From Lachnospiraceae bacterium (GTDB lineage: Bacteria; Bacillota_A; Clostridia; Lachnospirales; Lachnospiraceae), in NCBI GenBank assembly GCA_017482005.1, contig JAFUOI010000003.1, positions 247,633 to 311,632 on the forward strand: a stretch of 64,000 bases of DNA. The letters are read 5' to 3'. The notes beneath the pieces are model-generated. The model saw nothing but the letters and a program-made list of their open reading frames with translations. It did no database searches and was not told the DNA's origin. A program made the position numbers and the translations under genes. Positions 43,073 through 63,812 of the stretch are shown piece by piece. Every line of letters starts with the position of its first letter. The first letter of the stretch is position 1.

Positions 43073-43915
43073 ATGGGCTTATTGTCAGGACTTGGTGCTT
43101 TGGGATTGGGAAACCTTGAAGGGGCGTCCTTATATGAAAGCGAACAGGAAAAAACAAAAGTAACGATAAAAGAAGTTCCGCAGGAAGTAAAGGAAGCGGA
43201 TATGTTGTTTGACAAAACATATACATGTCCGGTTTGTGATCAGGAGTTTAAGGCTAAGACGATTCGTGCGGGTAAGATCCGTATGCTCGGAACGGACATG
43301 GATTTGCGTCCGAAGTACGAGGGCATTGATATGATGAAGTATGAGACAATTGCATGTCCTCATTGCGGATATGCAGCACTCAGCCGCTATTTTAAATACA
43401 TGACAAGTATGCAGCTGAAACTAATCAAGACCAATATCTGTGCCAATTATCAACCGCATCCGATGGAGGGTGAGATTTATACACATGAGGAAGCTTTGGA
43501 ACGTTATAAACTGACCCTTGCCAATGCAATTGTAAAGAAGGCAAAATCAAGCGAGAAAGCCTACATCTGCTTAAAGATGGGATGGCTGATGCGCGGAATG
43601 GCGGAAGCTCTGGATACAACATCAGCGGAATACAGTGCAAAAAAAGAAGCCTATGCAAAGATGGAACGCGAATATTTGAGCAATGCGCTGGAAGGCTTTG
43701 TCAGCGCCCGTCAGACGGAAGGATTTCCGATGTGCGGCATGGACGAAAATACCGTAGACTATCTGATTGCCGTTCTTGCCATGGAATGCGAGCAGTATGA
43801 CCTTTCCCTGAAAGTACTCAGCAATGTAATCGGTTCCAAAAACGCTAATTCACGCGTGAAGGAACGCGCACTTGATGTAAAAAATATGATTCGCGAAAAG
43901 ATGAAGAAGGCGTAA
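43073..43915 (+). CDS. DUF2225 family protein with two CxxC motifs
   Basis: A 280-residue protein matching DUF2225. After a glycine-rich N terminus, a zinc-ribbon-like part has YTCPVCDQEFKAKTIRAGK (about 50-68) and ACPHCGYAA (about 100-108), the two CxxC pairs separated by some 46 residues, and the rest is helical with TPR-like spacing (for example ERYKLTLANAIVKK and MGWLMRGMAEAL). Function unknown; a structural zinc is likely. GGGGGAG precedes the ATG. The short leader contains imperfect AGTAGTAA repeats. Downstream lies a 770-base gene-free repeat array that would form its 3' untranslated region. Confidence 0.85.
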   Translation: MGLLSGLGALGLGNLEGASLYESEQEKTKVTIKEVPQEVKEADMLFDKTYTCPVCDQEFKAKTIRAGKIRMLGTDMDLRPKYEGIDMMKYETIACPHCGYAALSRYFKYMTSMQLKLIKTNICANYQPHPMEGEIYTHEEALERYKLTLANAIVKKAKSSEKAYICLKMGWLMRGMAEALDTTSAEYSAKKEAYAKMEREYLSNALEGFVSARQTEGFPMCGMDENTVDYLIAVLAMECEQYDLSLKVLSNVIGSKNANSRVKERALDVKNMIREKMKKA

Positions 43916-44178
43916 TCTACAGCGGCGATTTTGCTGAGATTGGGTACATGGCGAAAAAGTGATTTCCAAGACCCAATATCAGCGTTGTTTTGAGGGGGAA
44001 ATTTGTATTTTGGGCATCTGACGAAAAAATGATTTCCAAGACCCAATATCAACATTGGTTTGAGAGAAAAATCTGTATTTTGGGTACCTGTTGAAAAAGT
44101 GATTTCCAAGACCCAATATCGGCATTATTTTGAGAGAAAAATCTGTATTTTGGGTACCAGCATAAAAACTAGATTTTC

Positions 44179-44215
44179 AGATCCTGCAATTTGCTTAAGT
44201 TGCAGGATCTTTTTG
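44179..44215 (+). terminator. Intrinsic terminator inside repeat unit 4
   Basis: AGATCCTGCAA (44179-44189) pairs perfectly with TTGCAGGATCT (44200-44210), followed by T to 44215. It is also the first strong terminator after the DUF2225 gene. Confidence 0.85.
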
Positions 44216-44427
44216 TTGCCTTTTTTGCTATGTGCCCAAAATCACAAAAATCAAGGGGAATATTATGAAATATTGGGTCTCGGTGTGATATTTTTTCACC
44301 GGTACCCGGTTTTATTCGTTAATATAAATGAATTTACCAATGTTGGGTATATATCAAAAAAGCAATTCTTTAGATCTCGAATTTTTGTAAAACGGATGCA
44401 ATATTTTTATGTTTTGGGTACCATTGA

Positions 44428-44477
44428 AAAAAGTCCCTATACAGATCCATGAATTTTTGGATTCTGCGGGACTTTTT
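44428..44477 (+). terminator. Intrinsic terminator inside repeat unit 7
   Basis: AAAAAGTCCC (44428-44437) pairs with GGGACTTTTT (44468-44477), with an inner CAGATCCA/TGGATTCTG stem. No gene lies between this and the terminator at 44179, so a separate transcript may end here. The arms also allow termination on the minus strand. Confidence 0.75.
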
Positions 44478-44596
44478 GACTCTTTTTTCTGGTATATACC
44501 CAAATTGACATTTTTAATCAAAATTTATACAGTATTTTGGGTCTTGGTAGGATGTTTTTTTACATATACCCAAAATTAAGAGAAGCACGGGTTTAG

Positions 44597-44686
44597 CCAA
44601 GCTACATAATTCTGTCGAGCCGGACGATTCTGCCAAGCTACATAATTCTGCCAAGCTCCGTGATTCTATCAATTCACATGATCCTT
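44597..44686. repeat. 18-base tandem repeat, about five copies
   Basis: Consecutive 18-base units begin at 44597, 44615, 44633, 44651 and 44669. Units 1 and 3 are identical (CCAAGCTACATAATTCTG); the others share AGC near the start and GATTCT or ATTCTG near the end. The array ends exactly at the stop codon of the minus-strand DUF975 gene. On the minus strand one frame is open through it and reads repeating hexapeptides such as SLAELC. Confidence 0.75.
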
Positions 44687-45420
44687 TATTCTTCCGCAAC
44701 AATTTCATTCCGCATTCCCACAAGCTCCAGATAATATCCTGTCTTTGTTGCGGTAAAATACGGATAAATCCAAAGTGTGGCAATTCCGAAGGTCATGATT
44801 GATAAAAAGAAGATACCGATAAAGCTGACAAGCAGATAAAAGTAACTCCCGCGATGTCCTTTCATGAGCGATTTGCTTTCGGAAAGAAGTCTGCCTACGG
44901 AATATTCCGGGTAATCCAGAATCAGGTAAAGTGCCTGGGAGTAATCCAGACTGATCAGAGTTCCTTTGATCAGCATGAAAATCGCACTTGCTGCAATAAG
45001 CAGTGCAAAGTAGTAATTCCGTGTCATTGCTGTAAGTGCCACCGAGATAATCAGCGGTATTCCGCACAAAAATGTTTTGCCGAAGATGGCAAGGTAAACA
45101 AGAATGGCACGGTCCGCACAAGTGCGGAAACCGACCCAGATATTGCCGGCTTCGATTTTTTCTCCGCGGTATATATTTAGATATAGATGGTTCTGGCCTA
45201 CGATAAATACGGTCGAAAGTAAGACGATGATAAAGTAGGCGGCATAATAAATCAGCATTCCGCCGGTGGACTGAAGATTGATCTGAAGTTCAATCAGTGT
45301 CAGTACGCCTGAAACAATTACTTCCATCAGGACGTATGCAAGAACAGCGGTTTTATATTTGCCGAGAAGTATTTCCCTGGCGTCTGCCTTGAGGGCAGAG
45401 GAAGATTTCAACTGTTTCAT
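44686..45420 (-). CDS. DUF975 family integral membrane protein
   Basis: A 244-residue protein with about six membrane segments. The start 45420 is preceded by GGAG at six-base spacing; an upstream TTG four codons earlier is less likely. Family features are the N-terminal LKADAREILLGKYKTAVLAYV and the late LILDYPEYSVGRLLSESKSLMKGHRGSYFYLLVSFIGIFF region (cited in parts: DYPEYS, SESKSLMKGHRG, LVSFIG). DUF975 proteins are of unknown function. It is the third gene of a minus-strand group, 23 bases after the SprA-like gene. Its stop abuts the 18-base tandem repeat. Confidence 0.85.
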   Translation of the reverse strand: MKQLKSSSALKADAREILLGKYKTAVLAYVLMEVIVSGVLTLIELQINLQSTGGMLIYYAAYFIIVLLSTVFIVGQNHLYLNIYRGEKIEAGNIWVGFRTCADRAILVYLAIFGKTFLCGIPLIISVALTAMTRNYYFALLIAASAIFMLIKGTLISLDYSQALYLILDYPEYSVGRLLSESKSLMKGHRGSYFYLLVSFIGIFFLSIMTFGIATLWIYPYFTATKTGYYLELVGMRNEIVAEE

Positions 45421-45443
45421 GAGTGACTCCAATATAAGAAACC

Positions 45444-46451: not shown

Positions 46452-46508
46452 TGAAGGGAGATGTCCTTTGGACATCTGCAAAATTATAAGAAAATATGGA
46501 GAGGTTAT

Positions 46509-48797
46509 ATGAGGAAGAAATTAGTATCGATGATGTTATGTCTGGTACTTGCGGTTTCTGTAACGGCGTGCGGCAACAGTCAATCAGCTCCGGCCACACT
46601 GGACGTAACAGAACAGACAGAACAGGCAGAAGTGACAGAAGAGGAAGAAGAACCGGTACAGGAAGCTGAGCCGGAGAAAGAGGAAGAAAAAGAAGCAGAA
46701 GAGGAAGCACCGGCCCTGGATCCGTTACCGGAGGGTAACATGATACAGAATCCGGATTTTGCACAGGGAAAAGGTGATTGGACAACATATTTGAACGGTG
46801 GTAATGCGCTTTTAGATGCGAACGATCAAGAGCAGCTTGTTATCGATATCCAGAAAACAGGAAGTCTGGATTACAGTGTGCAGGCATATTATGACGGTAT
46901 TTCTTTAGAGGACGGCGTAATTTACAAATTTGCGTTTGATATGGCAGTTACCACGCCGAGAACGGTCGTATGGCGTATCCAGCTTAACGGCGGTGATTAC
47001 TCACCTTATTTCCTTGAAGAGTTTAAGGTGGAATCGACAGAGATGCAGCACTATGAATATGAGCTTAAGATGGAAGGGGCTTCTGACCCGGCACCGCGTC
47101 TTTGCTTTAATGTGGGTGCATATGAAGGTGACGGCGAGCTTGCTCCTCACCAGATTATTTTAGATAACTTTGAGTTTTCCGTTCTTGACGGCTCAGGCAG
47201 AGTAGGTGCGCAGGCAGCCGTTGAAACACCGGACATCAATATCAGTCAGGTCGGATATCTTCCGGATCAGACAAAAGTGGCAACTTTCCGCGGAGACAGC
47301 ATCGGAACAGAGTTTGAGGTTGTTGATGCAGCCAGCGGCAAGAGCGTATTTACAGGTAAGATTACAGGTGAAGGCGAGAATGCATCTTCCGGCGAAAACT
47401 GTGCTGTCGGAGATTTCTCGGCACTTACGACAGAAGGTACATATAAGGTAGTAAACGAAGGTTGCGGCGAGTCGTACGAATTTACGATTGGTAAAGATAT
47501 CTACGGTGAGCTTTTGGATGATACGCTCCGCATGATGTATCTGCAGAGATGCGGTGTGGAAGTGACACAGGATCTCGCAGGTGATTTCGGACATGATGCA
47601 TGTCATACGGGATCTGCCATTGTTTACGGAACTGATACGGCAAAAGATGTATCCGGCGGATGGCATGACGCAGGCGACTACGGAAGATACGTGGTTTCAG
47701 GTGCTAAGACGGTAGCCGATCTGCTCATGGCTTACGAGGCATATCCGGATGCGTTTGATGATGACCTCAATATTCCGGAGAGCGGAAACGGTATTCCGGA
47801 TATTTTGGATGAAGTAAAATTTGAACTTGACTGGATGCTTAAAATGCAGGAGTCAAACGGTGGTGTTTACCATAAGGTAACATGTAAGAATTTCCCGGGT
47901 ACCGTACTTGCGGTTGAGGAGACAGAGCAGCTTTATCTTTCACCGATTTCCAACACGGCGACAGGTGATTTTGCGGCAGTTATGGCAATGGCAGCCAGAG
48001 TTTACAAAGATATGGATCCGGCGTTTGCAGATACCTGTCTGAATGCTGCAAAGAATGCCCTTGCGTATGTAGAAGCTAACCCGGATGCAAAAGGCTTCAA
48101 AAATCCGGAGGATGTTGTGACAGGTGAATATCCGGATGAGAACTTGGATGATGAGTATTTCTGGGCCCTTGCAGAGCTTTACAAGACAACAGGAGATTCT
48201 TCTTACAATGATAAGATCAAAGAAATCGATACCGCCGGTCTTGCAAAGGGACTTGGATGGGAAGCAGTAGGATACTACGGAATGTATACATATCTTTCTT
48301 GCGAAAATGCTGATACAAAGGTTGTAAATGATATTAACGGCATTTTTGATGAGGCAGTAAAAGCGATGGATGCAAACAAAGCATCAGATGCATACGGCTC
48401 TACGCTCGGCGATGTATATCCTTGGGGATCCAATATGAGTATCGCCAACAATGGTATGATATATTTGATGAAAGGGAATAAGGCGGGAGCAGAAAGCCAG
48501 CTGGCTTATCTTCTCGGTAACAACGCAAACAGCTACTGTTTCGTGACAGGTTACGGAAGTCTTTCGCCGGAAGGTACACATCACAGACCTTCACAGGTGC
48601 TCGGCACAACAATGAAGGGTATGCTTGTGGGAGGACCGAACAGCAATCTTGAGGATCCGTACGCACAGGCAACATTAAAAGACGCACCGAAGGCGAAATG
48701 TTATGCGGATAATGAGCAGAGCTTCTCATGTAATGAAGTTACAGTTTATTGGAACTCACCGCTTGTTTATCTCATTGCCGGTGTGGCAGGAAAATAA
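46509..48797 (+). CDS. Family 9 glycoside hydrolase (endoglucanase/cellulase) lipoprotein
   Basis: A 762-residue exported enzyme. The signal peptide ends in the lipobox VTAC (cysteine near residue 18-22), so it is anchored as a lipoprotein by an acidic Glu/Pro spacer (about 30-75). A carbohydrate-binding module of the CBM4/9 type spans about 78-225 (NPDFAQGKGDW ... LDNFEFSV), an N-terminal immunoglobulin-like CelD-N domain 235-330, and the GH9 barrel 335-762. Catalytic residues are Asp387/Asp390 in GGWHDAGDYGRY and Glu743 in NEVTVYW; FVTGYGSLSPEGTHHRPS is the conserved substrate loop. Expected activity is on beta-1,4-glucan. Start 46509 follows GGAGAGG. tex follows 11 bases later. Confidence 0.93.
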   Translation: MRKKLVSMMLCLVLAVSVTACGNSQSAPATLDVTEQTEQAEVTEEEEEPVQEAEPEKEEEKEAEEEAPALDPLPEGNMIQNPDFAQGKGDWTTYLNGGNALLDANDQEQLVIDIQKTGSLDYSVQAYYDGISLEDGVIYKFAFDMAVTTPRTVVWRIQLNGGDYSPYFLEEFKVESTEMQHYEYELKMEGASDPAPRLCFNVGAYEGDGELAPHQIILDNFEFSVLDGSGRVGAQAAVETPDINISQVGYLPDQTKVATFRGDSIGTEFEVVDAASGKSVFTGKITGEGENASSGENCAVGDFSALTTEGTYKVVNEGCGESYEFTIGKDIYGELLDDTLRMMYLQRCGVEVTQDLAGDFGHDACHTGSAIVYGTDTAKDVSGGWHDAGDYGRYVVSGAKTVADLLMAYEAYPDAFDDDLNIPESGNGIPDILDEVKFELDWMLKMQESNGGVYHKVTCKNFPGTVLAVEETEQLYLSPISNTATGDFAAVMAMAARVYKDMDPAFADTCLNAAKNALAYVEANPDAKGFKNPEDVVTGEYPDENLDDEYFWALAELYKTTGDSSYNDKIKEIDTAGLAKGLGWEAVGYYGMYTYLSCENADTKVVNDINGIFDEAVKAMDANKASDAYGSTLGDVYPWGSNMSIANNGMIYLMKGNKAGAESQLAYLLGNNANSYCFVTGYGSLSPEGTHHRPSQVLGTTMKGMLVGGPNSNLEDPYAQATLKDAPKAKCYADNEQSFSCNEVTVYWNSPLVYLIAGVAGK

Positions 48798-52883: not shown

Positions 52884-52907
52884 CCAAAACGTAAAAATAA
52901 TGTTACG

Positions 52908-53116
52908 TTCTTCGGGGTTGGGTGAAATTCCCTACCGGCGGTGATGCGCTGACAGGAGATGTTTATAGTGCGGAAGCGGTATGCATATTTAATTAGCAGA
53001 GGCGGTTTGCACATGGATTCCTGTATGACGACGAGTCCGCGACCCGGTTGCCTTTGGGTAATCGGCTGATCCGGTGAGATTCCGGAACCGACAGTAAAGT
53101 CTGGATGAGAGAAGAA
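52908..53116 (+). ncRNA. FMN riboswitch (RFN element)
   Basis: The conserved blocks occur in order: TTCGGGG, GGGTGAAATTCCC, ACCGGCGGTGATG, GAGTCCGCGACCCG, GGTGAGATTCCGGAACCGAC, AGTAAAGTCTGGATG and GAGAAGAA. P1 closes by TTCTTC (52908-52913) with GAAGAA (53111-53116). It binds FMN and controls the downstream riboflavin transporter. One variable arm (about 52960-53030) is longer than the minimal element. Confidence 0.95.
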
Positions 53117-53124
53117 AGAAAAGA

Positions 53125-63584: not shown

Positions 63585-63670
63585 GGAGAGGTATCGAAGT
63601 GGTCATAACGAGGCGGTCTTGAAAACCGTTTGTCCGCAAGGGCGCGTGGGTTCGAATCCCACCCTCTCCG
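63585..63670 (+). tRNA. tRNA-Ser (anticodon UGA)
   Basis: An 86-base class II tRNA. The acceptor GGAGAGG pairs with CCTCTCC (63663-63669), discriminator G; the anticodon loop CTTGAAAA carries TGA; a long variable arm (GTCCGCAAGGGC region) and the GGTTCGAATCC T-arm follow. CCA is not encoded. Confidence 0.95.
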
Positions 63671-63723: not shown

Positions 63724-63812
63724 GGAGAAGTACCCAAGAGGCTGAAGGGGCTCCCCTGGAAAGGGAGTAGGTCGTTAATAGCGGCGCGAGGGTTCAAATC
63801 CCTCCTTCTCCG
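63724..63812 (+). tRNA. tRNA-Ser (anticodon GGA)
   Basis: An 89-base class II tRNA. The acceptor GGAGAAG pairs with CTTCTCC (63805-63811), discriminator G; the anticodon stem CTCCC/GGGAG encloses CTGGAAA with anticodon GGA; a long variable arm and GGTTCAAATCC T-arm follow. CCA is not encoded. Confidence 0.95.

Follow-up and report, generated by a model that had tools for sequence, protein, structure and literature searches.

The textbook case of palindromes that have their own enzyme is the REP/RAYT partnership. In the published accounts of REPtrons, the gene is flanked by its own palindromes, these are dispersed as monomers to multimers, and the repeats are enzyme-specific (PMC3733652, PMC8266576). 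One of these accounts describes REP palindromes as tagged by GTAG or its complement at one end (PMC3733652). The family to which the present locus belongs shares with REP/RAYT systems (TnpAREP, REPtrons) short, intergenic, dispersed palindromes in mono- to multimeric form that flank a presumed enzyme gene and fall into enzyme-specific families. It differs in that the gene encodes a predicted PD-(D/E)XK-like nuclease instead of a Y1/HUH transposase, the GTAG tag is lacking, and three- and four-unit composites are built at preferred spacing. BOX, ERIC, and similar modular intergenic repeats are also modular, palindromic, and dispersed; we know of no enzyme gene linked to them, whereas one is linked here.

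The reading favored here, to which we assign a probability of roughly 0.6, is a modular dispersed palindromic element that inserted in one lineage and expanded locally; its trans-acting partner would be a predicted PD-(D/E)XK-like nuclease of ~252 amino acids, expected to be encoded elsewhere in the genome. The best explanation would be a partnership like that of REP and RAYT in which the enzyme is an unrelated one. If true, a system parallel to REP/RAYT employs an unrelated nuclease, and the strategy arose more than once. A function would also be at hand for a protein family annotated in databases, where it has a name at all, as 'ATPase', intergenic arrays of this class in Lachnospiraceae would be explained, and the pairs of paralog and repeat would be ready-made specificity swaps for the bench.

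Organization of the array

The array lies between two convergent genes in the 64-kb stretch of DNA that was analyzed, referred to as the window (Table 1). The building block, S, is an inverted repeat of ~37 bp (TTGGGTA...TACCCAA) with the head TTGGGTA(C/T)..GAAAAA and the tail ..A(G)ACCCAA. Eight units (TTGGGT/C) open at the starts of the S and L rows in Table 1; the head opens units 1-4, 6, and 7, and units 5 and 8 are S reversed (S'). The L unit consists of S and S' face to face round an inner terminator-like stem, forming a hairpin of 87-90 bp (90 bp in the window, 87-89 in relatives), with further S units ~33 bp from it; the 123-bp unit is L plus a 33-bp spacer. The order of the array is S-S-[S-L-S']-[S-L-S'], each L being itself S-S', which amounts to two composites and two extra S units. 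Composite A (44080-44309, 230 bp) reads S-33-L-33-S', and composite B (44343-44573, 231 bp) begins with unit 6, whose right arm has decayed.

Table 1. Features of the array and its neighbors in window positions; R1 is the covariance model introduced in the next section
Feature	Position	Strand	Evidence and remarks
DUF2225 gene, left convergent neighbor	43073..43915	+	ORF, domain match
S unit 1, TTGGGTA..GACCCAA, 37-bp inverted repeat	43940..43976	+	Extra unit upstream of composite A; sequence, repeats D1/D2
S unit 2	44010..44046	+	Extra unit upstream of composite A; sequence
S unit 3, left arm of composite A	44080..44116	+	R1 match 44080-44239, minus strand, 75.3 bits
L unit of composite A, TTGGGTACC ... 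GTGCCCAA round inner hairpin	44150..44239	+	R1 match 44150-44309, 102.1 bits (element among the 20 sequences that built R1); DNA fold z -5.2
Inner hairpin of L, composite A, terminator-like, T-run on + strand	44179..44210	+	Terminator scan
Reversed S unit closing composite A	44273..44309	-	Sequence, fold
S unit 6, decayed right arm, left arm of composite B	44343..44379	+	Sequence
L unit of composite B	44414..44503	+	R1 match 44414-44573, 105.6 bits (element also among the sequences that built R1); DNA fold z -3.9
Inner hairpin of L, composite B, GTCCC..GGGAC then T-run	44433..44472	+	Sequence, fold; missed by simple terminator scan
Reversed S unit closing composite B	44537..44573	-	Sequence, R1
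18-bp tandem repeat GCCAAGCTACATAATTCT adjoining the array	44596..44667		Tandem-repeat search
DUF975 gene, right convergent neighbor	44686..45432	-	ORF, domain match

The unit starts, spacings, and coordinates given in the preliminary description are borne out by the sequence, by TRF, which reports a 70-bp array at 43940-44158 (3.1 copies, score 312), and by a pattern count. The pattern TTTTGGGTACCNNNNNAAAAA, with up to three mismatches, matches 11 times in the window (eight times within the array), where 1.05 matches are expected, and 11 or more matches occurred in 0 of 100 shuffles. The 193-base block said to occur twice is indeed repeated and is better described as two copies of one composite element. 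A CRISPR array, which had already been discounted, is rejected because the spacers are not unique: with unit and spacer taken together, copies 1-3 share 82% identity. Several dispersed elements or nuclease genes elsewhere also adjoin short tandem repeats, the sequence differing each time (L122, L128, L140, L302; by eye).

A dispersed family in related genomes

Searching with the DUF2225 protein yielded 80 loci, of which the four closest (L001-L004) have 75-85% identity. At the syntenic site in all four, the same gene pair encloses a short gap with a simple hairpin (by eye), and the array is absent. A genus search centered on one congener returned exactly these four genomes (G001-G004), and synteny and identity suggest that the window belongs to the same genus. 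In the favored explanation, the array would have arisen when a member of a dispersed family inserted in this lineage and expanded locally. The preliminary description had considered a palindromic family that multiplies locally; the family is supported, but its distribution extends beyond the locus to related genomes.

The head pattern occurs at many places in G001-G004, several of them inverted pairs at a fixed distance, and a backward control pattern gave at most about half as many matches in G001, G002, and G004 and about equal numbers in G003. Twenty full-length elements (18 congener, two window) align almost gap-free with most positions variable, and from these the covariance model R1 was built. 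The further copies in related Lachnospiraceae that such a model was expected to reveal are present: with both strands counted and 150 candidates scored per genome, R1 has 49, 47, 40, and 25 matches at E≤1 in G001, G002, G003, and G004, respectively. Under stricter filters, with seven candidates scored per genome, 12 of 397 family genomes have matches at E≤1e-6, G001 and G004 among them.

The 67 places examined further (G001, 22; G002, 21; G003, 13; G004, 10; window, 1) lie between convergent genes in 30 cases, tandem genes in 26, and divergent genes in six, with five lacking a neighbor, as judged by crude ORF calls that some of the places overlap. Elements are retained at orthologous loci in different species, a pattern that a host function would also explain. 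Mean identity lends no support to concerted evolution within genomes (0.718-0.734 within versus 0.708-0.723 between congeners), and sequence searches did not find the array in phage or plasmid DNA. As far as could be found in the literature, this family of palindromic repeats, scattered in related gut Lachnospiraceae, has not been recognized before.

Association with predicted nuclease genes

Elements lie on both sides of a predicted nuclease gene in five genomes, namely all four congeners and G147, which is outside the genus. A second, shortened copy of the gene in G001 (L213) is likewise flanked. The 64-kb window itself contains no such gene, and the partner is expected elsewhere in the genome.

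Relatives of the nuclease at E≤1e-15 are present in 49 of 150 family genomes, with 30 loci among the matches listed. When these 30 were searched jointly with the controls, R1 scored at least 24 bits in five (L246, L247, L249, L250, L256), of which L246 holds two elements used for building R1, and reached the noise level in L254 (18.8 bits, E 1). The DUF2225 control loci scored no higher than 17.5 bits, both in the 70 of the joint search and in all 80 (790.7 kb); a repeat of the control in two pieces of ~97.5 kb gave 0 and 1 match, the best at 17.1 bits. The filters of R1 depend on the amount searched, and the contrast between nuclease and control loci stands in the joint search and in the search by pieces. 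At the other 24 nuclease loci R1 finds nothing, and neither does it at E≤0.1 beside five further relatives in G001 (L298-L302).

Repeats at loci lacking an R1 match were judged by eye or by counts of words and inverted repeats, and some nuclease loci show none. Repeated 10-base words within 500 bp are commoner around the nuclease genes than around DUF2225 (30 loci versus 68 of the 80 controls, p 8e-10). They are also commoner there than 1000-1500 bp away in 17 of 18 loci with full flanks (p 2e-4), the fairer comparison because DNA flanking the DUF2225 controls may be richer in coding sequence. Loci whose two flanks have any word in common are not more frequent near than far (8/18 versus 7/18), and strong sharing of at least five words is seen in three near and no far cases. 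For inverted repeats with the span of S (33-41), the counts are 66 in the 47.1 kb close to nuclease genes, 16 in the 40.9 kb farther out, and 18 in 55.2 kb of control, and the loci containing them number 26/42, 13/42, and 15/46, respectively. More distant nuclease relatives are often neighbored by other palindromes of ~33-41 bp.

Different palindromes beside different paralogs

The repeats beside three other nuclease genes were searched in ten genomes at E≤0.01. Each is dispersed in and nearly restricted to its own genome, with 3, 6, and 26 matches there, of which 2, 3, and 21 are on contigs other than that of the query, and 0, 1, and 0 matches in the nine other genomes; one of the three distant G049 matches lacks a palindrome by eye (L284). 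Two dispersed copies in G041 share this layout but have another stem, TTTTGGTATA (L277, L278; by eye).

The spacer motif TTTACATAA divides the elements within a genome: it is carried by 0 of 11 long and 9 of 10 short elements in G001, and by 0 of 10 long and 6 of 9 short elements in G002. The long kind flanks the nuclease gene of L131, and a palindrome of the TTTACATAA type lies beside a second nuclease paralog (by eye in L298; R1 match in L205). Between one pair of convergent genes, G001 has a first-kind element, G002 has a different palindrome (TTCTCCCC..GGGGAGAA), G004 has a bare hairpin, and G003 has an unrelated open stretch; at this site R1 has no match in the latter three genomes. The G002 palindrome is similar by eye to one beside a third paralog (L300/L315).

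In one subfamily (L133, L138, L139, L142, L205, L298), TTATGTAAAC/GTTTACATAA adjoins L, which we take to resemble half of the Bacillus dif site, perhaps by chance. Large arrays of a palindromic repeat of ~52 bp occur at several places in G107 (L303, L304, L305, L257), one of them adjoining a nuclease gene.

Comparison with REP systems and MITEs

The REPtron feature of an enzyme gene flanked by repeat copies is seen here with a different enzyme in all four congeners and G147. None of 28 elements has GTAG or CTAC in the 12 bp beyond its ends, and the Y1 transposase (PF01797) has no match in G001 despite 49 element matches, in genomes that are MAGs and may be incomplete; G002, G003, and G004 have one, two, and two matches. 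The classical REP/RAYT reading was rejected on the missing tags and the lack of a Y1 transposase in G001. The arrangement is REP-like and the REP hallmarks are lacking, so the system behaves like a REP system yet is not classed as one. No nuclease-palindrome pair of this kind was found in the open-access literature, judged from titles and the openings of abstracts.

With MITEs, the elements have in common inverted ends, a size of ~150-230 bp, and no evident coding capacity. Unlike MITEs, they have internal units at fixed places and no target-site duplication above chance: the longest flanking direct repeat is 0 in 15, 2 in 7, 3 in 5, and 4 in one of the 28 elements, similar to random places. 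No insertion signature is therefore seen, and the MITE reading was rejected on this ground. It is unlikely, in our estimate, that these are non-autonomous MITE or REP sequences moved by an ordinary transposase, with the nuclease gene a bystander that tolerates nearby insertions. Such an origin would account for the inverted ends, the dispersal, and the mostly intergenic places, but not for the results above, nor for the nuclease genes of other genera, which are also associated with palindromes, of other sequences.

Spacing of the units

The lengths of the elements cluster near 151, 160, 169, 180, and 190 bp. Among 90 R1 matches, four are 151 bp, 45 are 158-162, 32 are 166-170, two are 179-180, and three are 189-191; the remaining four are 143, 144, 156, and 157 bp, and none fall at 163-165, 171-178, or 181-188. 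These 90 were picked by hand from 151, with most opposite-strand overlaps, partial matches, and duplicates dropped. At periods of 10, 9.5, and 10.5, the periodicity R is 0.70, 0.71, and 0.66, respectively, compared with 0.34-0.35 at 7 and 13; these values are limited by the picking, by some composites being counted from both sides, by kinship through descent, and by R1 having been built on lengths of 158-169. In three species (L125, L146, L229), the element at one orthologous locus measures 168, 159, and 151 bp, respectively.

Length classes ~10 bp apart suggest a constraint at the level of DNA. Each step is close to one turn of the helix, as if a protein read the units as DNA on a single face. 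A DNA-binding regulator or chromosome organizer, with phased palindromes as operators at fixed places for the benefit of the host, would also produce helical phasing, including that between orthologous elements, and would be in keeping with the retention of elements at orthologous loci and with a predicted N-terminal sheet and helices that could bind DNA. We consider this, too, unlikely, given the invariant nuclease-like residues of the protein (see below), the variation of the repeat sequence between paralogs and genomes, and local copy expansion as in the window.

The predicted nuclease and a possible mechanism

The linked gene encodes ~252 amino acids with no Pfam or NCBIfam match above the cut-off. 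The predicted structure of its C-terminal half resembles PD-(D/E)XK nucleases, with TnsA as the best match, and a Foldseek search with the predicted structure gave no PDB match at E≤0.001. The active site-like residues are E150, present in 46 of 47 loci, and D180, E195, and K148, each present in 47 of 47. In contrast with TnsA and other PD-(D/E)XK nucleases, the query lacks the canonical lysine (E195-H196-F197, with F197 at the lysine place) and has a different N-terminal part; K148 may stand in for the lysine.

The nuclease has 2937 relatives at E≤1e-10. No Pfam family is common to any two of 48 aligned relatives, and precomputed PF20586 is found on three among the 120 listed of the 2937. Phages contribute two records and plasmids five, all below 60% identity; one phage record covers more than 80% of the query, and the plasmid matches cover about half. 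These sparse and distant matches give no sign there of a system that rides phages or plasmids. The same nuclease-like domain also occurs inside open frames of 1112-1245 aa (G039, G083, G092), perhaps like PADLOC PDC-S68.

The C-terminal half (residues 118-249) matches the PADLOC proteins PDC-S68 (E 4e-30), as it would if the nuclease were a restriction-like weapon in defense or addiction, with the palindromes as decoys, self-marks, or regulators of the nuclease. This role seems quite unlikely to us: PDC-S68 is a candidate defense protein only, and defense does not require palindromes dispersed far from the nuclease gene.

In the favored enzyme-palindrome partnership, the nuclease would bind its own cognate palindromes as DNA, possibly extruded as a hairpin or cruciform, and would cut or nick them. 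Break repair or copying could then spread and multiply the palindromes. This would be the simplest mechanism, and it is likened to that of the RAYT transposases, which are thought to spread REPs. The association and the dispersal are observations, and nuclease activity and mobilization of the palindromes are inferences. Counted against this explanation are the lack of a nuclease gene in the window, of target-site duplication, and of a PDB match, the R1-negative nuclease loci, the lack of a near excess in any-word sharing between flanks, the persistence of elements at orthologous loci, and the S stems without covariation (see below). A broader proposal is more tentative, and we place it slightly short of even odds: bacteria would possess a second class of mobile palindromes tied to an enzyme, evolved independently, in which each paralog of a PD-(D/E)XK-like family with thousands of relatives would have its own helically phased palindromes, which it would cut and thereby spread by homing-like repair, continually reseeding intergenic DNA with terminators.

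Folding and covariation

Folded as single-stranded DNA, both long L hairpins (z -5.2 and -3.9) outperform 200 of 200 shuffles. Among three isolated S units, two did no better than shuffles (z -0.8 and -0.5) and one did better (z -2.6). The earlier statement that most units can fold into a stem holds for one of these three but not for the other two, and unit 6 has its decayed arm. Both 123-bp units contain long hairpins where terminators had been described, but a simple scan calls only the first (44179-44210), along with a small stem at 44298-44310. The inner hairpins are probably transcription terminators between convergent genes.

The covariation that had been sought in the stems is present in the inner hairpin of L, with both-sided changes in 8 of 12 pairs of the element alignment. 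For the whole L structure, 29 cells have a both-sided change versus 15.5 in shuffles, a value reached by 0 of 500, and the count of pairs with such a change (12) is not unusual, being reached by 149 of 500. Covariation in the S stems is not above shuffles (alignment A1), and the simple S-hairpin structure model was dropped for this reason. Pairing between the distant tails also exceeds shuffles on cells changed, and RNAalifold favors end-to-end pairing; pairings besides the L hairpin covary as well, which leaves the L structure as one of several candidate folds.

A structured RNA, that is, terminators or small RNAs at the 3' ends of convergent genes, is a very unlikely explanation. The paired changes of the inner hairpin, the strong fold, and the frequent location between convergent genes would suit it, but composites hold S in both orientations, length steps of ~10 bp are unexpected for RNA, no Rfam family matches, and the nuclease link would be left unexplained. 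An array of small RNAs and a long structured 3' UTR, both suggested in the preliminary description, gained no positive support. Rfam 15 at the gathering score finds nothing in the array, and in the window it gives only an FMN riboswitch (52904-53120, 108.8 bits) and two tRNA genes near the window end (63585-63670 and 63724-63812). The window also encodes a probable cellulase of glycoside hydrolase family 9 at 46461-48797, with CelD_N and CBM_4_9 domains.
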